From assembly GCF_000423465.1 (NCBI RefSeq), contig NZ_AUIA01000012.1, positions 1 to 64,000 on the forward strand: a DNA stretch of 64,000 nt. The letters run 5' to 3'. This DNA comes from Propionicicella superfundia DSM 22317. GTDB lineage: Bacteria > Actinomycetota > Actinomycetes > Propionibacteriales > Propionibacteriaceae. Below, one piece after another: positions 1 to 34,497 of the stretch (position 1 is its first letter; each line of letters opens with the position of its first letter). The notes below the pieces were generated by a model. That model was given only the letters and a program-made list of their open reading frames with translations. It was not told where the DNA came from and made no database searches. Both the position numbers and the translations under genes were made by a program.

Positions 1-870
1 GTACAACTGGATCCCGTTCGTGGTCGTGACCAGCGGGGTGATGTCCTGCTTCAGCCGCTCGTCGGAACCGCCACCGCCCGCGCCCCCGGCGCCGGCGTAG
101 CAGCCGGTCCCGGGCGTCACCTCGCGCGGGCCGTATGCGGCGGTGGTCCACCGATAGCCATCCGGCGCGGCGGGCAGCCCGGTCTCGGCGACCGACACCT
201 CCTGCCCGACACGGACGCCTGTGATCAGCACCGGCAGATCCTGCGACACGCTCGTGGTCTGCGACGATCCCCCGTCCACGGTGTAGTCCACCCCGAACGC
301 GGTGCCACCCGGCACGGACACGCCGTCGGGGGCGTCGACCACCTTCTTCACCAGCACCCAGTCGGCGTCGGCGTCCGCCTGGCGGCCGCGGGCAGCGGAC
401 GGGGTCGACGAGCCCGGCGCGGCGCTCTGCGGTTTCGCGGATTCGCTCGTGGGCTCCGAGCCCGTCGCCGCCGACGTCTCGTCCGTCCCCGGAACGGCCT
501 GCCCCGATTCCTGGGAGCCATCCTGTTGCGTCGCCGACGTCTCGTCCGTCCCGGGAACGATCTGCGCCGATTCCTGGGAGCCGTCGTGTTGCGTCGCCGA
601 CGTCTCGTCCGTCCCGGGAACGATCTGCGCCGCTTCCTGGGAGCCATCCTGTTGCGTCGCCGTCGGGGACACCGTCGATTCGGCCGCAGAGGGAGTCGCG
701 GATCCCTCCGTGGGCACCGGGACGTCGGCACTGGCGGGTGCAGCGACAGCCAGCGGGACGCTCAACAGGGCCAGTGCCAGCAGCTTCGCCAAGCCCGCGG
801 CACCGCGCGTCATCCGCCCGGTTGTCGATCCGGGAGCGGCTGCACCCCGGAGCCCTCTCCGCCGATCCAT
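1..870 (-). CDS. Secreted surface protein with DUF5979-like domain and start of an S74-type chaperone domain (partial)
   Basis: The frame starts at ATG 870 and is still open at base 1, so only about 290 N-terminal residues are present. Residues 27-48 are a signal peptide core (LLALALLSVPLAVAAPASA) with cleavage near Ala48. A Ser/Thr/Gln-rich stalk follows, with three 21-residue repeats at about 70-132. Residues 171-235 resemble DUF5979 (KKVVDAP, then PGGTAFGVDYTVDG), a module of actinobacterial wall-attached adhesins. After a Gly-rich linker the readable part ends with GSDERLKQDITPL, the usual opening of the intramolecular chaperone (peptidase S74) domain of phage tail spikes and some surface proteins. 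A surface or adhesion role is inferred. The C-terminus and any anchor lie outside the window. The upstream SD is weak, so the start is likely but not certain. Confidence 0.75.
   Translation of the reverse strand, partial: MDRRRGLRGAAAPGSTTGRMTRGAAGLAKLLALALLSVPLAVAAPASADVPVPTEGSATPSAAESTVSPTATQQDGSQEAAQIVPGTDETSATQHDGSQESAQIVPGTDETSATQQDGSQESGQAVPGTDETSAATGSEPTSESAKPQSAAPGSSTPSAARGRQADADADWVLVKKVVDAPDGVSVPGGTAFGVDYTVDGGSSQTTSVSQDLPVLITGVRVGQEVSVAETGLPAAPDGYRWTTAAYGPREVTPGTGCYAGAGGAGGGGSDERLKQDITPLVTTTNGIQLY
478..666. repeat. Three tandem 63-bp repeats inside the surface protein gene
   Basis: The string CTCGTCCGTC recurs at 478, 541 and 604, giving a 63-bp period with few differences between copies. 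Each unit encodes 21 residues of the form ATQ(Q/H)DGSQE followed by VPGTDETS. The near-identity at DNA level suggests recent unequal crossing-over and possible copy-number variation of the stalk. Confidence 0.85.
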
Positions 871-26009: not shown

Positions 26010-26780
26010 ATGAGCTACGCGGATCGCTTCACTGTGTCGGGCAAGAAGGCAATCGTCACCGGCGGCTCCCGCGGAATCGGTCAGGCGTGCGCGGTCGTGC
26101 TCGCCGAGGCCGGAGCGGAGGTCGCCATCGTCGGCCGTGACACCGCGGCCCTGGCCGAGAGCGAGGCTCTCGTCAAGGCCGCAGGCAACCCCGTGCACGT
26201 CGTGACCGGTGACGTGCTCACCGCATCCGGCGCACGGCAGGCGGCGAGGGACGCCCTGGCCGCGCTCGGTGGCGTGGCCGACATCGTCGTCAACTGTGCC
26301 GGCATCGCCCGCATCGCCCCCTTGACCGAGTTGAGCCAGGAGGACTGGGACGACACCATCGCCGTCAACCTGACTGCGCCCTTCGCGTTCACGCAGGAGG
26401 TCGTCGGGCCGATGATCGCGCAGAAGTCCGGCAAGGTCGTCAACATCTCCTCCCAGGCCGGCGTCATCGCCCTGGACGGCCACGGCGCGTACTGCGCCTC
26501 CAAGGGCGGCATCAACATGCTCACGAAGATGATGGCGCTCGAGTGGGGCCCGTCCAACATCCAGGTCAACGCCGTGGCGCCGACCGTCATCCTCACCCCG
26601 ATGGGGACCAAGGTCTGGGGCGACCCGGCCAAGGCCGATCCCATGCTGGCCAAGATCCCCCTCGGCCGGTTCGGGCAGCCCGTCGAGGTCGCCGATCTCG
26701 TCCTGTTCCTGTCGTCCTCGGCGTCGGACCTCATCACGGGCGACGTCATCCTGATCGACGGCGGGTACACCGCGATCTAG
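26010..26780 (+). CDS. Short-chain dehydrogenase/reductase (polyol or 3-oxoacyl type)
   Basis: The 256-residue enzyme has TGGSRGIG, NCAG and YCASK motifs, and ends with LITGDVILIDGGYTAI, as in classical SDRs. The sequence around NISSQAGVIALDGHGAYCAS is most like sugar-alcohol dehydrogenases of the threitol/sorbitol group, though a 3-oxoacyl-ACP reductase cannot be excluded. AAAGGAG lies six bases before the ATG. It is a single-gene unit. Confidence 0.85.
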   Translation: MSYADRFTVSGKKAIVTGGSRGIGQACAVVLAEAGAEVAIVGRDTAALAESEALVKAAGNPVHVVTGDVLTASGARQAARDALAALGGVADIVVNCAGIARIAPLTELSQEDWDDTIAVNLTAPFAFTQEVVGPMIAQKSGKVVNISSQAGVIALDGHGAYCASKGGINMLTKMMALEWGPSNIQVNAVAPTVILTPMGTKVWGDPAKADPMLAKIPLGRFGQPVEVADLVLFLSSSASDLITGDVILIDGGYTAI

Positions 26781-27155
26781 CCCGCCGTGCCCGGCCCCGG
26801 GTCCTCCGAGACGTCGTCCGACTCGGGGGACGGGGGCCGGGTCGTCCGGATTGCGGAGTTCTGTACCGTGCAGGGACGCTTCACGCCACGAGGCGCCTCG
26901 ACCGCGTGTTTCTTTGCGTTATGGCCATGTCCGGCGCGCTCATAGGGTGCATAACTCCGCAGCCGGCCCGTCGGAGCGTTTCGACCGGCCGCATTCGGTA
27001 CAGAACTCCGCGCGACCCCCTGTCCGGACCCGGAACCGCCGACCGGACGGGACAGGTCGAGATCCGGAGGTATCACAGTCCTCGAAAAGCGCTCTTTCGC
27101 TGTAACTGAACTAGTCAGTAGCCTGAACGCGCGACCGAGCAGAAAGAGCTGACGA
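26781..27155. other. Intergenic region with dispersed element and CHAT-operon promoter
   Basis: The 375 bases carry the dispersed element described separately. Upstream of the protease gene there is an AGCGCT-centred near-palindrome at 27083-27099 and a TAGCCT -10-like box at 27119-27124. No gene is supported here. Confidence 0.5.
26853..27011. repeat. Dispersed intergenic element, copy 2, with perfect 16-bp inverted repeats
   Basis: GCGGAGTTCTGTACCG at 26853-26868 and its exact complement at 26996-27011 flank the region. A third related motif, GGGTGCATAACTCCGCAG, is at 26946-26963. The right end, read on the minus strand (TTCTGTACCGAATGCGGCCG), matches the element near 7.96 kb. Confidence 0.6.
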
Positions 27156-28748
27156 GTGTCCGAGAACAACTCCGAGAGAGCGCAGCACCTGTCGCCGACG
27201 CCCCTCTTGCCCCCCGATATCACCCAGCGCTTCGGGGCCCGCGTCCTGAACCCGACCGAGGCCGTGACGTTGCCCGATGGCCGCGAGCCGAGCCCGACAT
27301 CGTACGTCGGCAGCTCGGTCCTCATCCGCGGCATCTCCGGGGCCGACGCCGTGGCGGAGTACAACGCGCGGCTCCAGGCCGGCGATGTGCGGCTCGAACT
27401 GCCACCCGATGTCGAGCACGACCTCGAGATCGTGCGGCGCCTGTCGGAGCGTCATCCCGAGGTGCGGGAGATCTTCGAACGCCACTGGACGTTGCGCGCG
27501 AACCTGGTCCCGGCGAGCCGGCAGCAGGCCCCCATCGACGCGTGGCCCTTCCTGCAGCGGCTCCGCGCCGACGACCGGGAGACCTGGCAGGGACGGCTCA
27601 GCCTCGTCCACATCCTCACGTCCGCGCCCGCGATCGACGGGGCGCCCTACTACGCCGGGCTGCCGTACTACGCCGGGCTGCCGTACTACGCCGGACTGCC
27701 CTACTACGCCGGCCTCGGGACGCCCGGCCCCGCCGTCGAGTACGGGCGTGCGGGTGCCGGCGGTCGGACGCCGGTGTCGCTCGTGCTGCCCGACCCGGCG
27801 AAGCGGGCGAAGCGCCTCAAGCGTCCGCCGGTCGTCGCGGTGTTCGACACGGCTCTCGGCACCCACCCGTGGTTCGCCGACCCGGCGCGCGCGACGTCCG
27901 ACGTCCGCCTCGACGGTCTGCTGCTGGGACTGGGCGGCGACTTCGAGACGTGCCAGCTCCCGACCCCGCAGGTCAACCCCCTCGACGGCTGCATCCAGGC
28001 CGACACCGGGCACGGCACGTTCATCGCCGGCATCGTCCGGCAGGAGAGCCCCGAGGCACGTACCCTCGTCGTCCCGGTGATGACCGACGAGGGCGTCGTT
28101 CCCGAGGACGCGCTCACGAACACGCTCGTGCTGATGCTCGTCCGGCATGTCCTCGGCATCGTGGAGGGACGCCCCGAGGACGTCATCGATGTCGCGAACC
28201 TGTCGCTCGGGTACTACCACGAGGACCCGGAGGACGCCGCCGCGGACGGCCCGCTGTGGGATCTGCTGTCCGACTACGGACGATGGGGCGTCGCCGTGAT
28301 CGCGGCCGCCGGCAACTCGTCCACCACCGCACCGATGTTCCCGGCCGCGTTCACCTTGCAGCCGCGCGACCCCGGCCAGGTGCCCCTCATCAGCGTGGGG
28401 GCGCTCAACCCGGACGGCACGGTGGCGTACTTCAGCAACGCCGGGGCGTGGATCACCTGCCACCGGGCCGGTTCGAACCTCGTCAGCACCGTCCCCACGA
28501 CGCTGCACGGGGCGATCCAGGCCAGCGCCCGGCTCACCTACGAAGGGCTCGAGCGCGCGACGATCGACCCCGACGACTACCGGTGCGGGTTCTCCCTGTG
28601 GAGCGGGACGTCCTTCGCGGCTCCGGTCTTCGCCGGAGAGGTCGCCGCCTTCCTGGCGGACGTCGACGTCCTTCCCGAGATCGACAGGGACGCGTTCGTG
28701 AAGCGCGGGCTCGGTGCCGTCGAGCACCTGCTGAAGGACGACCGGTGA
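27156..28748 (+). CDS. Cytoplasmic subtilisin-like serine protease (S8) of the CHAT operon
   Basis: The 530-residue protein has no signal peptide. Residues 1-160 are a family-specific N-terminal region. Residues 164-187 are four perfect PYYAGL repeats. The peptidase domain follows with the triad Asp231 (VAVFDTALGTHP), His286 (DTGHGTFIAG) and Ser486 (SGTSFAAP), plus oxyanion Asn387 (AAAGNSS). All catalytic residues are present, so it should be active inside the cell. It is first in a four-gene operon with a sigma factor, a small protein and a CHAT protease. The start GTG 27156 has a modest AGAAAGAG site. The N-terminal region plus repeat linker may be an inhibitory piece removed on activation; that is inference. 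Confidence 0.88.
   Translation: MSENNSERAQHLSPTPLLPPDITQRFGARVLNPTEAVTLPDGREPSPTSYVGSSVLIRGISGADAVAEYNARLQAGDVRLELPPDVEHDLEIVRRLSERHPEVREIFERHWTLRANLVPASRQQAPIDAWPFLQRLRADDRETWQGRLSLVHILTSAPAIDGAPYYAGLPYYAGLPYYAGLPYYAGLGTPGPAVEYGRAGAGGRTPVSLVLPDPAKRAKRLKRPPVVAVFDTALGTHPWFADPARATSDVRLDGLLLGLGGDFETCQLPTPQVNPLDGCIQADTGHGTFIAGIVRQESPEARTLVVPVMTDEGVVPEDALTNTLVLMLVRHVLGIVEGRPEDVIDVANLSLGYYHEDPEDAAADGPLWDLLSDYGRWGVAVIAAAGNSSTTAPMFPAAFTLQPRDPGQVPLISVGALNPDGTVAYFSNAGAWITCHRAGSNLVSTVPTTLHGAIQASARLTYEGLERATIDPDDYRCGFSLWSGTSFAAPVFAGEVAAFLADVDVLPEIDRDAFVKRGLGAVEHLLKDDR
27645..27716. repeat. Four 18-bp tandem repeats encoding PYYAGL
   Basis: Four in-frame copies of CC(G/C)TACTACGCCGG followed by (G/A)CTG or CCTC encode PYYAGL x4 between the N-terminal and protease domains of the subtilase. 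The near identity suggests slippage and possible length variation between strains. Confidence 0.85.
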
Positions 28749-29347
28749 CTGCCTCGGCCACCGACACGCTCCCGGGCAGGGCGACCGCCGCGTTCACCGC
28801 GTATCGCGACGGGGATGTCGGGGCGCTGGGCACGCTCGTCGATCTCGTGACGCCCGTCCTGTGGCACGCCGCGCGCGCCTGCGGGCTCGATGCCGCCACG
28901 GCCGAGGACGTCGTCCAGGGCACCTGGGTGAAGCTGTACGAGGGCGGGGACCGGATCGCCGAGCCCGGCGCGATCCTCGCCTGGCTCGTCACGACGACGC
29001 GGCGGGAGTCCTGGCGGGTGTCGGCCCGGCTCGGACGGGCGACGCCGACCGACTTCGACGAGCCCGTGCCGCCGCGCGGGGAGCCGCTCGGCACGGCATC
29101 CGCGGCCGATCCCGAACAAGAGGTGTTGCGCGACGACCGGGACCGCCGGCTGTGGGATCACGTGCAACGGCTGAGCCCGCGCTGCCAGGTGCTGATGCGG
29201 GTGATCTGCTTCGCGGACGCCCCGAACTATGCCGTCCTGGCCGAGAGCCTCGGCATGCCCGTGGGCTCGATCGGGCCCACCCGCGGACGTTGCCTCGCCG
29301 CCCTCCGGAAGGCCCTCCTCACCGACCCCCATTGGAGCCTGACATGA
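28745..29347 (+). CDS. ECF-like sigma-70 family sigma factor
   Basis: The 200-residue protein has a region 2 (ARACGLDAATAEDVVQGTWV, then ILAWLVTTTRRESWR) and a region 4 helix-turn-helix (LSPRCQVLMRV, then LAESLGMPVGSIGPTRGRCL). It should direct RNA polymerase to a specific promoter set, perhaps its own operon. GTG 28745 overlaps the protease stop by four bases (GTGA), so the amounts of the two proteins are linked. No zinc-type anti-sigma factor is encoded beside it; the next small gene is the best candidate for control. Confidence 0.85.
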   Translation: MTASATDTLPGRATAAFTAYRDGDVGALGTLVDLVTPVLWHAARACGLDAATAEDVVQGTWVKLYEGGDRIAEPGAILAWLVTTTRRESWRVSARLGRATPTDFDEPVPPRGEPLGTASAADPEQEVLRDDRDRRLWDHVQRLSPRCQVLMRVICFADAPNYAVLAESLGMPVGSIGPTRGRCLAALRKALLTDPHWSLT

Positions 29348-29832
29348 GCATCCCGCAGATCGACGCACTGGCCTCGGAGCCGCTCGACGAGTTCGACGCC
29401 CGGATCCTCGCCGACCTCGCCAGAGTGCAGGACCAGGCCGACCCGCCTCCGGCCGGGCTGACGGACCGCATCCGGTTCGAGCTCTCGCTGCGGGCGCTCC
29501 AGGCCGAGCTGGCCGAGTTGCAGGGGATGTCGGAGTTGGAGACCGTCCGGTCGCAGTCCGCGCCCGAGGTGTTCGACACGATCTCGTTCACCGCCAGCCG
29601 CGTCAGCCTGATGATCACGGTCACGCCCGAGCGCGGGCGCGACGACACCGTCCGGATCGACGCCTGGGTGACCACCCCGGGGGTCGAGATCGAGCTGTGG
29701 CAGGAGGGGAGCAAGAGGACCGCACGCGCCGACGAGGACGGCCGGCTCGCGTGGGACGACGTCCCGCGACGACCCACCCGCCTCCTCATCTCCGGCACGC
29801 CACCGGTCGTCACCCCGACCATCGAGTTGTGA
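29344..29832 (+). CDS. Small two-part protein of the sigma/CHAT operon, function unknown
   Basis: The 162-residue protein has an acidic helical N-terminal half (PLDEFDARILADLARVQDQ, then PPPAGLTDRIRFELSLRALQ) and a beta-rich C-terminal half (about 75-162) resembling a small beta-sandwich of the carboxypeptidase-regulatory type. It lacks the HxxxCxxC zinc motif and any membrane segment. Its place between sigma factor and CHAT gene, with ATGA overlaps on both sides, suggests a cytoplasmic regulator or adaptor, possibly a substrate. I do not assign a biochemical function. Confidence 0.75.
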   Translation: MSIPQIDALASEPLDEFDARILADLARVQDQADPPPAGLTDRIRFELSLRALQAELAELQGMSELETVRSQSAPEVFDTISFTASRVSLMITVTPERGRDDTVRIDAWVTTPGVEIELWQEGSKRTARADEDGRLAWDDVPRRPTRLLISGTPPVVTPTIEL

Positions 29833-32447
29833 GGAGCGAGCAGGAGGCCACCACGTCCGACGCCGACGAGCTGACAGCCGCGCAGCACCTGTACGACCAG
29901 GCGCTCGCGGCCCAGGCGCAATACCGGTTCGCCGAGTTCGGGGAGTTGATCAACCGGACGCGGGATGTCGTCGCGCGCGCGGAGCCGGCGGCGAGCTCCG
30001 CCGACCACGACCGGTGGCGGGAGCTGCGCATCCGGGTCGCCGTCACGTGGAGTTGGCACGCGTTCGACGCCCAGGGCCTTCCCGCGGCGCTCGCCGCCCT
30101 CACCGCCGCCGAGGCGGAGGCCACGGAGTGGGAGCGGGAGGATCTGCTGGGTGCGGTCCTGTTCCAGCGCGCGTCCGTGCTCAGCCGGGGCGGGGACCAC
30201 GCCGCGGCCGTCGACGTGGCCCGGCGGGCCGCCGGCCATCGTGCCGGGATGCCGCTGGACTCCCAGGCGAAGGTCACGCTCAACTGGGCTCTGCTGGAGT
30301 CATGGGCGGGGAATCTCCCGGGGGCTGTCGCCCGCAACGAGGAGGCGTCCGAGCTCGCGCGGCGCGCCGGTCTGCCGAACCTGCAGTTCATGGCGCTGCA
30401 CAACGGCGGGTACATGGAGTTCCTGCGCGGCAACCTGCCGCACGCCCTGGTGCTCATGGAGCGGGCCGACGCGATGGACGTCGACACCGACCGCAGCGTG
30501 GCGCGGCTCGACCATGCCCGGGCCCTCCTCGACGCCGGTCTGCTGGACGAGGCCCGGGAGATGCTGCGATCGGCGGCCGGGCTGTGTGCGGCGAACGGCA
30601 GCGACCACGACGTCGCCGAGTCGGAGCTGGAGACGGCCCGCTGCGAACTGCTGCGCGGCAATCCCGACGCGGCGCGAGACTGGGCTCGACAGGCGCGACG
30701 CCGGTTCGCCGCCCGCAAGGAGCCCGGCTGGCGCGTCCGCGCCTTGCTGGCCGAGCTCGACGCGCTGGCGGAACTCCCGGGGACGGTCCGGCGCCGGGCG
30801 CGGCTCGCCGCCGCCCTGCACGCGGCCTCCACGGCGAATGGGGACACCCTCGCCGCCGAGCAGGCCGGGCTGGCGTGGGCCGAGGCGCTCCTCGACTCCG
30901 GCGACCCGCAGGCCGCGGCGCCGTGGGCGGCTGCGGCACCGCTGCGGGACTCGCCGCAGATCACCACGCGACTCCACTACGGTCTCGCGGCCGCGAAACA
31001 TGCTCTGGCCGCCGGGGACGCGGACGCCGCGCGGGACGAGCTCACCGCCGCGGCGCGTGCCCTCGCCGCCGCGCAGCGGGAGAGCGCCTCGATCGATCTT
31101 CGTACCGCGTTGTCGGGGCATGGGCAGCGGCTGGCGCAGCTCGACTGCCGGCTCGCCGTCGAGCGGGGGGACGCCGCCGATGTCCTGGAGCGCGTCGACC
31201 GCTGGCGCGGTGCGCTCCGCGGGCAGGCGTCCGTGCGCGCTCCGTCCGATCCGCGCGAGGCGGAGCTTCTCGCCCGGCTGCGGAACCTGCGGGACGAGGC
31301 GCGGATCGCCCAGGGCGACGACCTCGCGCGCGTTCAGCGCGAGACCGACGAGGTCGCGCGCCGGATCCGCGAGTTCTCGTGGCGGGCGGCGGCGCAGGGC
31401 GAGCGCGACCCGGCCGGCTCGTTCTCGATCGACGCCGTCACCGCGGCGGTGCGTGAGCGCAGCGAGACGCTGCTCGTGCTGGCCCAGGCCGGAGACGCGT
31501 TCGAGCGGGTGGAGGTGACGCCCGCGGGAGACCTGCGGCTGCATCCCGGCGTGCCGGTCGCGGCGGTCCTCGAGGCCACGCGCCGAGTGCGAGCCGATCT
31601 CACGGCGGCGTCCCGCCTCCCGGAGGGCCATCCCCTGTCGGGTGCGATCCACGCGTCGCTGACACGAGGTCTTTCCACCCTGGACGGTCTGCTCCTGCCG
31701 GCCGGGTTCGCTCCCGGGCGGTTCGTCGTCGCGCCCCCGTCGCAGCTCAATCTGGTGCCGTGGGGCATGCTGCCCCGGCTGCGGCAGATGCCGGTCACCG
31801 TCGCCGCGACCGTCACCGACTGGGCGGACAGCGCCCACGTGGTCGTGGCGCCCCGAGTGACGGCGGTCGCAGGCCCCGATCTGCCCGAGGCCGACGCCGA
31901 GGTGAGCGCGGTCTCCGTCGCGTGGCCGGGCAGTCGCGCCATCGCCGCCGCCGACTCGACCGGCCGCGGTCTGATCGCGGCGCTCACCGGCAGCGACCTC
32001 GTCCACGTCGCGGCGCACGGCGAGCATCGCGCGGAGAACCCGCTGTTCTCCAGCCTCCGGCTCGGTGACGGCGTCCTGTTCGCGCACGAGTTCGAGGGGC
32101 AGGCGCTGCGCGTGTCCCTCGCCGTGCTCTCGGCATGCGACGCGGGCCGGGTGACACCGCGCGCCGGCGACGAGGGACTGGGGCTGGCCGCCTCGCTGCG
32201 CGAACTCGGCGTCGGGACGGTCGTCGCACCGCTCACCCCCGTCCCCGACCGCTTGTCCCGGGAGATCATGGACGACCTGCACACGCGCCTGGCGGCCGGG
32301 CTCGACACGTCCGCGGCGGTGGCTGCCGCGGGTGCGGGAAAGGGAATTCTCGCGGCCTCGTTCACGACGTTCGGACGTCCGTGGAAAAAAAGTGTGGTGT
32401 CCCCTGTATCAGGGTCTTCCGTCGGTGCTCTTGAGCGGCAAGGGTAG
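29829..32447 (+). CDS. TPR-CHAT protein (caspase-fold cysteine protease)
   Basis: The 872-residue protein has about 550 residues of TPR-like helical repeats followed by a CHAT domain (about 575-850). The catalytic dyad is intact: His730 in VHVAAHGEHRAENPLFSS and Cys770 in LSACDAG. CHAT proteases are relatives of separase and caspases and act in bacterial stress and immune pathways; TPR repeats usually sense a partner. The N-terminus at GTG 29829 overlaps the upstream stop. With the co-encoded active subtilase, a two-protease cascade is plausible. No membrane segment or secretion signal is seen. Confidence 0.88.
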   Translation: MRSEQEATTSDADELTAAQHLYDQALAAQAQYRFAEFGELINRTRDVVARAEPAASSADHDRWRELRIRVAVTWSWHAFDAQGLPAALAALTAAEAEATEWEREDLLGAVLFQRASVLSRGGDHAAAVDVARRAAGHRAGMPLDSQAKVTLNWALLESWAGNLPGAVARNEEASELARRAGLPNLQFMALHNGGYMEFLRGNLPHALVLMERADAMDVDTDRSVARLDHARALLDAGLLDEAREMLRSAAGLCAANGSDHDVAESELETARCELLRGNPDAARDWARQARRRFAARKEPGWRVRALLAELDALAELPGTVRRRARLAAALHAASTANGDTLAAEQAGLAWAEALLDSGDPQAAAPWAAAAPLRDSPQITTRLHYGLAAAKHALAAGDADAARDELTAAARALAAAQRESASIDLRTALSGHGQRLAQLDCRLAVERGDAADVLERVDRWRGALRGQASVRAPSDPREAELLARLRNLRDEARIAQGDDLARVQRETDEVARRIREFSWRAAAQGERDPAGSFSIDAVTAAVRERSETLLVLAQAGDAFERVEVTPAGDLRLHPGVPVAAVLEATRRVRADLTAASRLPEGHPLSGAIHASLTRGLSTLDGLLLPAGFAPGRFVVAPPSQLNLVPWGMLPRLRQMPVTVAATVTDWADSAHVVVAPRVTAVAGPDLPEADAEVSAVSVAWPGSRAIAAADSTGRGLIAALTGSDLVHVAAHGEHRAENPLFSSLRLGDGVLFAHEFEGQALRVSLAVLSACDAGRVTPRAGDEGLGLAASLRELGVGTVVAPLTPVPDRLSREIMDDLHTRLAAGLDTSAAVAAAGAGKGILAASFTTFGRPWKKSVVSPVSGSSVGALERQG

Positions 32448-32467
32448 AAACCACCTCGGGAGCATCT

Positions 32468-32497
32468 CCCGGGCCGACTCGGGGGGATCGGCCCGGG
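32468..32497 (+). terminator. Hairpin after the CHAT operon
   Basis: CCCGGGCCGA and TCGGCCCGGG form a perfect 10-bp stem with a 10-base loop, 20 bases past the CHAT stop. There is no T-tract. Confidence 0.55.
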
Positions 32498-32515
32498 AAT
32501 CCACCCTCAGGAGCG

Positions 32516-32583
32516 TCGTACTCGCGGCGCCGGGCTCATTCCTTTTGTCATGGTTTTCTGGGCGAAAAGCGCCGCGAGTACGA
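32516..32583. repeat. 15-bp perfect inverted repeat around an AT-richer 38-base spacer
   Basis: TCGTACTCGCGGCGC at 32516-32530 and its exact complement at 32569-32583 enclose 38 bases that include CCTTTTGTC and GGTTTTC. It lies between the CHAT operon and the oxidoreductase gene at 32617. It could be a paired operator, an attenuator or a tiny mobile element. Confidence 0.6.
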
Positions 32584-32616
32584 TCTGCTCAATGATCCCG
32601 GACTCCGTGCACCGCC

Positions 32617-33282
32617 ATGGCGACCGCTGACGCGCGCGGCCGCACGCTGGCCGTCTTCGGTCCGGGCAAGGTCGGCGAGGCGATCGGGCGCCTCGCGCTC
32701 GCGGCCGGATGGGACGTGCTGTACGTCGGGTCTCCGCGCCACACCTCGCTGCAGCCCTTCCTGGACGTGTCCGTCCCCGGCTCTGTCGCGGTCGGCCACG
32801 AGGACGCGGCGCGCCGGGCGGACGTCATCGTCCTCGCGGTCCCCTACGGCGCGGCACGCACCCTGCCGTGGCACCTGTTCGCCGACCGGCTCGTCGTCGA
32901 TGCCATGAACCGGTGGCCTCCGGTCGACTGGTCGCGCACGCCGCTGCCGGAGCGGTCGACGTCCGAGGAGCATGCCCTGCTGAACCCGAGGATGCGCCTC
33001 GCCAAGACACTGAACCATCTGGGGTTCGGCGACCTGGAGGACGATTCTCTGCCGGCCGGCGACCCGCTACGCCGCACCCTCGCCTTCGCCACGGACCATG
33101 ACCGCGACCGGGCCACGCTCATCGGCCTGCTCGACGATCTGGGATTCGATGCGCTCGACCTCGGCCCGCTCGCGGAGGGACGCTGGCTCGAACCCGGTTT
33201 CGCGGGGTTCGGCCGTGACCTGGACGCCGCCGGGTTCCGCGCGGCGATCGCAAAGTCTAGATCACTCTACGGAAACGGCTAG
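32617..33282 (+). CDS. NADP/F420-dependent oxidoreductase-like Rossmann protein
   Basis: The 221-residue protein opens with a dinucleotide-binding motif (LAVFGPGKVGEAIGRLAL) and continues as a small Rossmann domain with VIVLAVPYGAA and VVDAMNRW, as in the F420H2:NADP oxidoreductase family and its relatives. It probably reduces NADP-linked substrates in the cytoplasm. Whether this organism uses F420 cannot be told from this window. No strong ribosome site precedes ATG 32617, so the start could be slightly different. Confidence 0.75.
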   Translation: MATADARGRTLAVFGPGKVGEAIGRLALAAGWDVLYVGSPRHTSLQPFLDVSVPGSVAVGHEDAARRADVIVLAVPYGAARTLPWHLFADRLVVDAMNRWPPVDWSRTPLPERSTSEEHALLNPRMRLAKTLNHLGFGDLEDDSLPAGDPLRRTLAFATDHDRDRATLIGLLDDLGFDALDLGPLAEGRWLEPGFAGFGRDLDAAGFRAAIAKSRSLYGNG

Positions 33283-33312
33283 ATATCGGCAGAGACGGGT
33301 AGCCCCGCCGCG

Positions 33313-34497
33313 TCACCGCTTGGCGAGACTCGTGATGACCCGGAAGGTGCCGAGCCCGGCGAACAGCAGGTACATGGCGACTGCGGGAACGTACCCGGAC
33401 CAGATCTCGGGGTTGGCGATGTTGTCGATCGTGAGCGCCATCGCATCCGAGGCGAAGAAGCCCTCGTCGATCGCGTAGAAATAGATGTCGCTGCCGACTC
33501 CGACGACCAGCGCGAGCACGGCGCCGAGGAGGATCATCACGATCAGCGGGACAGCGCCCTTCCTGGGTGCGGTCTTCGCACCGACGCCGTACAGCCAGAT
33601 CGCGGCGGCAGCCATCACGAAGCTCGTGATCGACGCGAAGAAGCCCATCCGCCAGATGATGGTCGACAGGACGACGCCCAGCAGGATCCCGCCGACCGCG
33701 AAGAGCAGGCCCGCGCCGACGCGTTCGGGGCCGGCGGGTGCCTGGGCGACCGGGACGCCCGGGGCGGCGTACGCCCCCGGAACCGGCGCTCCCGGCGCGG
33801 CGACGCCCTGCGGCGGGTAGCCAGGAGGCGCGACCGGCGGATAGGACCCTGCCGCGCTCGGCGGGGCGCCGAAGCCGGGCACGGCACCGCCCTGCGGGGC
33901 GGAGGGGTATCCGTCCTGCGGAACGGAAGGGTAGCCGCTCGGAGCGGCAGGCTCGTAACCGCCCTGCGGAACCGACGGATAACCGCCCGGGGCGGTCGGC
34001 TGGTAGGCGGAGGGGTATCCGCCCTGCGGAACCGACGGGTAGCCGCTCGGAGCGGCAGGCTCGTAACCGCCCTGCGGAGCCGGCGGGTAACCGCCCGGGG
34101 CGGTCGGCTGGTAGGCGGAGGGGTAGGCCTGGCCCGACGGCTGCGGCCAGGCCGGGTCGGGCGCGGAACCGGCGGCCGCGGCGTAGGGCGACGACGCGTA
34201 GCCGTCCGGCACTCCCGCCGAAGACGGCGCGGCATAGGGCGACGACGCGTAGCCGTCCGGCGCCCCCGCCGGAGGGGTCAGGGTCGAGGGACCGGTCGAG
34301 CCCGCCGCAGGCTCGGTGGGGCCGGCGACGGGGGCGGTCCAGGCCGGGGCGTCCAGCGGTGCCGCCCCCAGGCCGTCGGCGGACGTGCGAAACGCGTCGA
34401 GCGGCGGCGGAGCACCGTCCGCGGCTTCGGGAGTGAATCGCGCGCCGGTCGTGGCGGGGTCATCGGAGAAGGGCTGCTGCTGCACATCGTCGGGCAC
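33313..34497 (-). CDS. Membrane protein with proline/glycine/tyrosine-rich N-terminal repeats
   Basis: The 394-residue protein has a disordered N-terminal region (about 1-260) rich in Pro, Gly, Tyr and Ala with two 36-residue tandem repeats. Four hydrophobic segments follow (about 267-385, for example LLFAVGGILLGVVLSTIIW). Long cytoplasmic Pro/Gly/Tyr tails on small membrane domains are frequent in actinobacteria, but I cannot name a family or function. GTG 34497 is preferred over the upstream ATG because GGGGAACTC precedes it. The 281 bases to the divergent gdhA hold both promoters and nothing else that I recognise. Confidence 0.75.
   Translation of the reverse strand: MPDDVQQQPFSDDPATTGARFTPEAADGAPPPLDAFRTSADGLGAAPLDAPAWTAPVAGPTEPAAGSTGPSTLTPPAGAPDGYASSPYAAPSSAGVPDGYASSPYAAAAGSAPDPAWPQPSGQAYPSAYQPTAPGGYPPAPQGGYEPAAPSGYPSVPQGGYPSAYQPTAPGGYPSVPQGGYEPAAPSGYPSVPQDGYPSAPQGGAVPGFGAPPSAAGSYPPVAPPGYPPQGVAAPGAPVPGAYAAPGVPVAQAPAGPERVGAGLLFAVGGILLGVVLSTIIWRMGFFASITSFVMAAAAIWLYGVGAKTAPRKGAVPLIVMILLGAVLALVVGVGSDIYFYAIDEGFFASDAMALTIDNIANPEIWSGYVPAVAMYLLFAGLGTFRVITSLAKR
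33902..34117. repeat. Two 108-bp tandem repeats in the disordered tail gene
   Basis: GCTCGTAACC recurs at 33951 and 34059, and TGGTAGGCGG at 34001 and 34109, giving a 108-bp period. The repeats encode 36 residues built from GGY(P/E) and SGYPSVPQGG units. Confidence 0.7.

Follow-up and report, generated by a model that had tools for sequence, protein, structure and literature searches.

The four overlapping genes at 27156-32447 (+) of the window (the whole stretch of DNA that was analyzed, 64,000 nucleotides from Propionicicella superfundia DSM 22317) encode a subtilase (S8) zymogen, an ECF-like sigma factor, a 162-residue protein termed P3 and a TPR-CHAT protease, and together they have the look of an alarm circuit, built on proteases, that has not been described before. 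In the explanation that we favor, with about even confidence, the set would be a chromosomal proteolytic switch made of two modules, one consisting of the sigma factor with P3 and the other of the S8 zymogen with the TPR-CHAT protease. The TPR groove of the CHAT partner is most likely the docking site of an array of hexapeptides at the pro/mature junction of S8, a feature absent from the initial annotation of this DNA. Coordinates are given in Table 1.

Table 1. Features of the four-gene region, in window coordinates, with the basis of each assignment.
Feature	Position	Strand	Basis or remark
S8 subtilase zymogen, 530 aa	27156-28748	+	Pfam PF00082, conserved catalytic residues, model aligned to pro-subtilisins and PCSK9
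ECF-like sigma factor, 200 aa	28745-29347	+	PF04542 above cut-off; SigE/SigL profile match
P3, 162 aa	29344-29832	+	Helical N-part and Ig-like beta sandwich; candidate sigma regulator (AF2; adjoins sigma)
TPR-CHAT protease, 872 aa	29829-32447	+	PF12770, H730/C770
Predicted sigma promoter of the operon, GTATCA-N16-CTCTT	27070..27096	+	Motif enrichment upstream of relatives
S8 prodomain (most likely), about aa 46-157	27291..27626	+	Structure alignment of the S8 model
Array of 4 x PYYAGL, aa 164-187	27645..27716	+	S8 pro/mature junction; proposed TPR ligand
S8 catalytic domain (D231, H286, N387, S486)	27771..28745	+	Pfam, alignment of relatives, structure alignment
P3 Arg69 codon	29548..29550	+	Invariant; end of long helix and start of linker; candidate CHAT cleavage site
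TPR codons M188 to N192	30390..30404	+	188, charge swap with the hexapeptide; N192, conserved
Second predicted sigma promoter	32406..32432	+	Overlaps last codons of the CHAT gene

All three gene junctions are 4-bp overlaps by their ORF coordinates, exactly as the initial annotation had reported. Its description of the products as an S8 protease without a signal peptide and with D231, H286 and S486 intact, an ECF-like sigma factor, a two-part protein of 162 residues without a zinc motif and a TPR-CHAT protein of 872 residues with H730 and C770 intact was borne out by profile searches, alignments of relatives and structure models. Pfam identified Peptidase_S8 (E 2.8e-14) in the first product and CHAT (PF12770, E 8.9e-24, 84.9 bits with a cut-off of 24) in the last, together with a TPR_12 match below its cut-off (E 3.8e-6, 27.4 bits against 30.1). 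H730 and C770 are kept in 58/58 aligned relatives, and by profile and catalytic His/Cys the 872-residue protein belongs to the CHAT proteases. A second, more distant CHAT protein is encoded in the source genome (L002, G000 C5:163092-163712, 36.2 bits). The sigma factor matched Sigma70_r2 (PF04542) above the cut-off at E 5.9e-8 and TIGR02937 with 40.4 bits, just below the cut-off of 42.9; Pfam made no call for region 4 on the 200-residue protein, and the family profile matches SigE/SigL chains across about 160 positions. The protein is classed with the ECF sigma factors, which have regions 2 and 4 only.

The catalytic residues of S8 are present in nearly all of 50 relatives (D231 in 48/50; H286, N387 and S486 in 49/50 each), the exceptions being alignment gaps in two broken copies, the remnant L046 and the frameshifted L086. 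Of 47 S8 proteins, 1 has an N-terminal stretch that is hydrophobic (mean hydropathy above 1.6 over 19 residues); the S8 of the source genome reaches a maximum of 1.49, and it is predicted to carry no signal peptide. The structure model of S8 (mean pLDDT 83, below 50 over residues 160-203) was aligned with VIA-align to pro-subtilisin E (3whi 7..345 on 52..530 of the model, Z 26.1, rmsd 3.2, 295 aligned) and to PCSK9 (6u2f 69..420 on 46..530 of the model, Z 27.7, rmsd 3.0, 307 aligned), whereas structures matching the catalytic domain only gave about 220-240 aligned residues. Because the prodomain and the catalytic domain align together to pro-subtilisin E and PCSK9, residues 46-157 are most likely a prodomain, and from the D/H/N/S site and the modeled subtilisin-type prodomain S8 would be assigned to the subtilases with prodomain.

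Four copies of PYYAGL sit between this prodomain and the catalytic domain, inside the stretch with pLDDT <50, and the array is the sole occurrence of a degenerate PYYAGL-type pattern in the available sequence of the source genome. Tandem arrays, called where the score was at least 6 and above the gene's own 20 shuffles, are present in 123 of 135 distinct close S8 genes and in 0 of 15 distant S8 proteins outside the 135; among the arrays of the close genes, 97 have period 6 and 99 are perfect repeats in protein sequence. The 97 period-6 arrays contain 64 different hexapeptide units, usually following the pattern P-[YF or other hydrophobic]-x-x-[GSPT]-x. Comparison of units within genes gave a pooled pS of 0.50 and a pooled pN of 0.027, the latter lowered by construction because arrays were detected by protein similarity (units at least 60% like the consensus). 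Since synonymous sites are near saturated, fresh duplication is disfavored, and we judge that the units are under constraint at the protein level.

The relation of the array to the four proteins was analyzed in 91 operons with a period-6 array and all four proteins, other periods being left out. When the other regions were controlled for, unit distance correlated with the TPR region (partial r 0.198, 0/200 permutations) and with the S8 catalytic domain (partial r 0.15, 0/200); values for sigma and P3 were -0.115 (3/200) and 0.097 (4/200), and no correlation was found with the CHAT domain (partial r 0.04, 81/200) or the S8 prodomain (r -0.06, 21/200). In a scan of 547 charge-variable columns covering all four proteins, from which residue 188 was picked afterwards, TPR-CHAT position 188 gave the most negative contrast with the charge at unit residue 4 (PIC r -0.53), and the largest positive contrast (r +0.50) fell in a C-terminal column of sigma. 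Unit residue 4 and TPR residue 188 form 36 opposite-charge pairs and 0 like-charge pairs: D/E units face Lys188 in 19/19, R/K units face Glu188 in 17/24 and never Lys, and A/V units face Met188 in 23/24. With simulated traits, 2/5000 reached the contrast correlation of 188 and 0/5000 its charge-pair counts. The raw correlation with unit charge is -0.82 for column 188 and -0.64 for the next column (TPR-CHAT profile column 417), where the pairs number 26 opposite and 0 like; in another three columns the split is 25-26 to 2. Shared ancestry can therefore skew raw charge counts, since columns other than 188 are also skewed. Counting of co-changes on the tree, in which charge direction is ignored, ranks the 188-unit pair only 66th of 6165; first place goes to unit residue 6 paired with S8 A384, which lies three positions ahead of the oxyanion Asn387 (8.0 co-changes vs 1.7 expected).

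Among arrays of other periods, neutral units face Met or Ala at 188, the basic unit of L130 faces Glu, and Met is faced by the acidic unit of L174 and by the basic units of L061, L063, L066, L068, L069, L070 and L236. N192, four residues beyond 188, is kept in 90/91 operons (one gap), and Asn is absent from this position in 2/22 other TPR-CHAT proteins. Position 148, four before N152 and one repeat earlier, co-changes too, and from TPR numbering we take 188/N192 and 148/N152 to be groove positions. Given the charge swap between unit residue 4 and TPR 188, we consider docking of the array in the TPR groove of the cognate CHAT protein most likely. Mutual information with APC across 136 operons gave a weak signal, in which a few hub columns recur: the top 300 pairs include 21 for sigma-P3 (9.5 expected), 86 for P3-CHAT (42.5), 88 for S8-CHAT (139.1) and 34 for sigma-CHAT (53.1).

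P3 was modeled by AF2 with a pLDDT of 90.8 and a pTM of 0.57 as three helices (H6-10, H16-32 and H39-68) followed by an Ig-like beta sandwich. Pfam gave no match above cut-off, the best being Trypco2 (E 0.089), and the fold search returned generic Ig-like sandwiches only, over residues 75-162 (best Z 8.3, rmsd 2.1, 73 aligned), with no anti-sigma fold for the helical part, a region that such a search hardly probes. Zinc anti-sigma factors (ZAS) carry an HxxxCxxC motif. Across 46 P3 sequences there is no invariant or nearly invariant Cys or His, and by sequence P3 falls outside the ZAS group; the invariant positions are D33, R69, F82, R104, W108, G133 and R134. Arg69 is invariant in 163/163 sequences, including loci with CHAT not adjacent. 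Loss of Arg69 was expected where CHAT is not adjacent, and this was not seen; the reading of Arg69 as a candidate mark of CHAT cleavage survives because those genomes carry TPR-CHAT elsewhere.

Across Actinomycetia the four genes are found side by side again and again, which makes their association more than chance. TPR-CHAT was matched (E <= 1e-3) in 64/198 genomes of the host's family (43/141 good genomes), and the P3 profile matches 99/394 genomes of the class. Named genomes were scanned with the S8 alignment, the best 80 of at least 396 relatives being kept: the complete set stands in 72 of these 80 loci, some of whose genomes are shared with the family and class scans, with the order sigma-P3-S8-CHAT in 45 and S8-sigma-P3-CHAT in 27 (the CHAT of L201, one of the 27, being a profile match of about 100 residues only). 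The remaining 8 comprise 2 loci each with S8-CHAT, S8 alone, S8-sigma-P3 and sigma-P3-S8, both loci of the last kind lying on short contigs. Conservation in this strain alone, the outcome that would have spoken against the annotated system, was not what emerged, as the set occurs in the family, the class and the named genomes; the earlier picture of two active-looking intracellular proteases with a dedicated sigma factor is upheld as a conserved unit, for which the promoter motif described below predicts a sigma loop.

Sigma is the immediate upstream gene of P3 in 40/40 class loci, a selection of ours from the class list, and the same stretches contain CHAT in 31 and S8 in 28. Where a sigma-P3 stretch is without CHAT, TPR-CHAT is found elsewhere in the genome (9/9, of which L131, L139 and L147 are short contigs or contig ends and may not be truly split); S8 adjoins the distant TPR-CHAT in 6/6 split genomes tested, and P3 is present elsewhere in 3/3 genomes with an isolated S8-CHAT pair. 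TPR-CHAT occurs in 3 of 20 P3-negative genomes, an unmatched sample drawn entirely from the host's order, most P3-positive genomes being from other families, and P3 is absent from 4 genomes whose CHAT matches are weaker (best E between 1.5e-5 and 3.8e-28). On this pattern of co-occurrence we consider that the separated parts of the set still belong together. Four whole genomes that retain sigma-P3-CHAT gave no S8 match and still have Met at residue 188 of TPR-CHAT, so that the array appears not to be strictly needed. In collections of 72,556 plasmid and 50,697 phage records we found one partial match each, and because of this near-absence the gene set looks chromosomal. A PADLOC defence search returned weak matches only. 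Distant sigma/CHAT neighbors at L084, L085, L087 and L091, where in some cases sigma is encoded on the other strand, seem to represent a paralogous version of the set.

GTATC is present in the 300 bp before the operon at 47/51 loci (mean 7.4 and maximum 15 in 50 shuffles), and the two-part motif GTATC[AG]-N14-18-CTC[CT] at 49/68 named loci (maximum 1 in 20 shuffles), the two sets of loci overlapping in part. The motif also stands upstream of S8 in 2/3 loci with P3 elsewhere (L064, L069), and in 14/55 and 26/66 relatives a second copy sits close to where the CHAT gene ends. The strict motif gave 61 matches in 15 genomes vs 16 for the reversed control. The 20 first genes scanned behind it include those for subtilases L037 and L326 (the latter with a VWA domain), a papain-type peptidase (L083), a CHAT protein with a TCAD7 domain (L356), a patatin (L357) and an AAA_21 ATPase (L335), as well as metabolic enzymes and 7 products without any match; strict-motif matches before metabolic or no clear genes (e.g. 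G000 C2:424853) are probably due to chance. The occurrence of GTATCA-N16-CTCYT before the operon and some other protease genes predicts autoregulation by the sigma factor.

The non-coding stretch 32433-32616, which follows the second predicted promoter, has an unusually stable RNA fold with a long hairpin (-85.2 kcal/mol and z -3.1 for 32436-32616) and is possibly a small RNA or a terminator; Rfam gave no match to E 0.1 across 26700-33400. In Microbacterium (L213, L216, L239) a stretch with no obvious gene follows the second promoter; by eye it looks similar between species and contains repeated TGGGGA. Several relatives encode downstream of the second promoter a protein of 720-750 residues starting MVQAMGPTYAGG (L325 106-2268, L322 797-3034), and the one copy scanned, that of L322, gave no Pfam match. 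A 163-residue protein with repeated LNPQPLPP and no Pfam match lies behind a sigma-motif site at L351 2551-3039.

In the switch that we favor, the lineage-specific hexapeptide copies at the S8 junction would dock in the concave TPR groove, as the covariation suggests, and the helical part of P3 would hold sigma, as its constant adjacency and architecture suggest. Once the S8-CHAT pair is triggered, array processing would alter the state of CHAT; by analogy with Csx29, Csx30 and CASP-sigma, CHAT would then cut P3, possibly near the invariant Arg69, and release sigma, which would read GTATCA-N16-CTCYT, a motif supported by its enrichment, and presumably regulate its own operon and further effector genes, several proteases among them. 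The order in which S8 and CHAT act in the cascade is something we infer. The initial annotation had suggested a cascade in which sensing frees the sigma factor and/or activates a protease; the array-TPR covariation adds to this a link between the two proteases, and the cutting of P3 by CHAT to free sigma is the step taken on inference. A more specific version, with an intracellular peptide messenger, is one we would put forward tentatively: S8 would cut its own array and set loose several copies of its private hexapeptide, these would bind the TPR groove and switch on CHAT, and CHAT would free sigma, which would yield more of the set and further proteases. An immune role of the set is possible.

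The position of the array between prodomain and catalytic domain and its covariation with the TPR could also be read with CHAT upstream. The array would then be a multivalent linker for both docking and cleavage, TPR-CHAT would bind the zymogen, cut the junction and so activate S8 as the executioner in a caspase-like cascade, and sigma and P3 would only tune expression. Plain mutual information, without correction, does show covariation of the unit with residues 734, 779 and 792 near the CHAT His/Cys (R734, A779, E792); under tree control, however, the CHAT columns drop (the best is only 116th of 6165) and we rejected coevolution of the CHAT active site with the array. The array units also have no constant candidate P1 residue, and the persistence of sigma-P3-CHAT after loss of S8 would be left unexplained, and we regard this reading as rather unlikely. 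We see a smaller chance that the array is only a self-processing and inhibitory linker of S8, kept identical by the S8 cleft, with the TPR covariation reflecting shared ancestry. The correlation of unit distance with the S8 catalytic domain, the leading A384 co-change and the skewed charge counts in other columns would all fit, but the 36-to-0 charge swap is with a residue in another protein, which ranks first of 547 columns by contrasts, and the CHAT domain of that same gene has no such distance signal. It is improbable, in our estimate, that the set is just a routine operon for proteolysis or protein quality under sigma control, in which the proteases have unrelated substrates and P3 is an unrelated adaptor; the co-occurrence of the genes even when they are not adjacent, and the array-TPR coupling, argue against this, and the weak defence-library scores, the near-absence from mobile elements and the metabolic genes behind some motif matches argue for it.

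Several known systems resemble the proposed two-module switch in part. Calp (CalpL-CalpT-CalpS) reportedly uses a protease, of Lon type and driven by cyclic oligoadenylate, to free a sigma factor in immunity; the protease-sigma release proposed here would resemble it, although Calp is said to have no CHAT or array. The EACC2/TRADD-N and EACC1 conflict systems contain caspase-fold proteases, partly near ECF sigma and TPR proteins (PMC8195603, PMC7159879), and unlike the four-gene set they are built on EACC domains and caspases, the term CHAT matching no CHAT domain in either text. In the RRNPPA (Rap-Phr) family, a TPR domain that has a conserved Asn recognizes a short peptide, often of six residues, which is produced by proteolysis and sometimes present in repeated copies (PMC11343458). 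The short repeated peptide and the conserved TPR Asn, here a putative reader, are like Rap-Phr systems with tandem propeptides; unlike RRNPPA, the peptide lies within a protease zymogen without a predicted signal peptide, the receptor is fused to CHAT and the system is actinobacterial. Because the array protein has no predicted signal peptide, the set does not belong to the secreted-propeptide systems of the RRNPPA kind. If our reading is correct, two proteases are wired by a lineage-variable tandem peptide and the receptor residue changes alongside; the charge-swap rule makes this specificity directly testable, and the promoter motif provides a regulon in which to seek the output of a bacterial caspase-like protease.

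A close analogue in logic is type III-E CASP, in which the TPR-CHAT protein Csx29 cuts Csx30, the inhibitor of the ECF factor CASP-sigma (PMC10028731). The earlier view that the mechanism is undescribed is thus tempered by this analogue, and otherwise holds in that no published description of the four-gene set was found in the open-licence papers searched. In both systems a TPR-CHAT protein, a sigma-partner protein and an ECF sigma factor are encoded together (PMC10028731 for CASP). A comparison of the P3 profile with PDB sequences, at the sequence level only, gave no Csx30 chain to E 10. The set differs from type III-E CASP in the 162-residue size of P3 and in the added S8 zymogen with its hexapeptide array, and no CRISPR effector, such as the Cas7-11 that activates Csx29 in type III-E CASP, is among the four genes; the proposed switch, if real, would amount to an equivalent in logic of the protease-sigma switch of CASP, one that is widespread and works without CRISPR.
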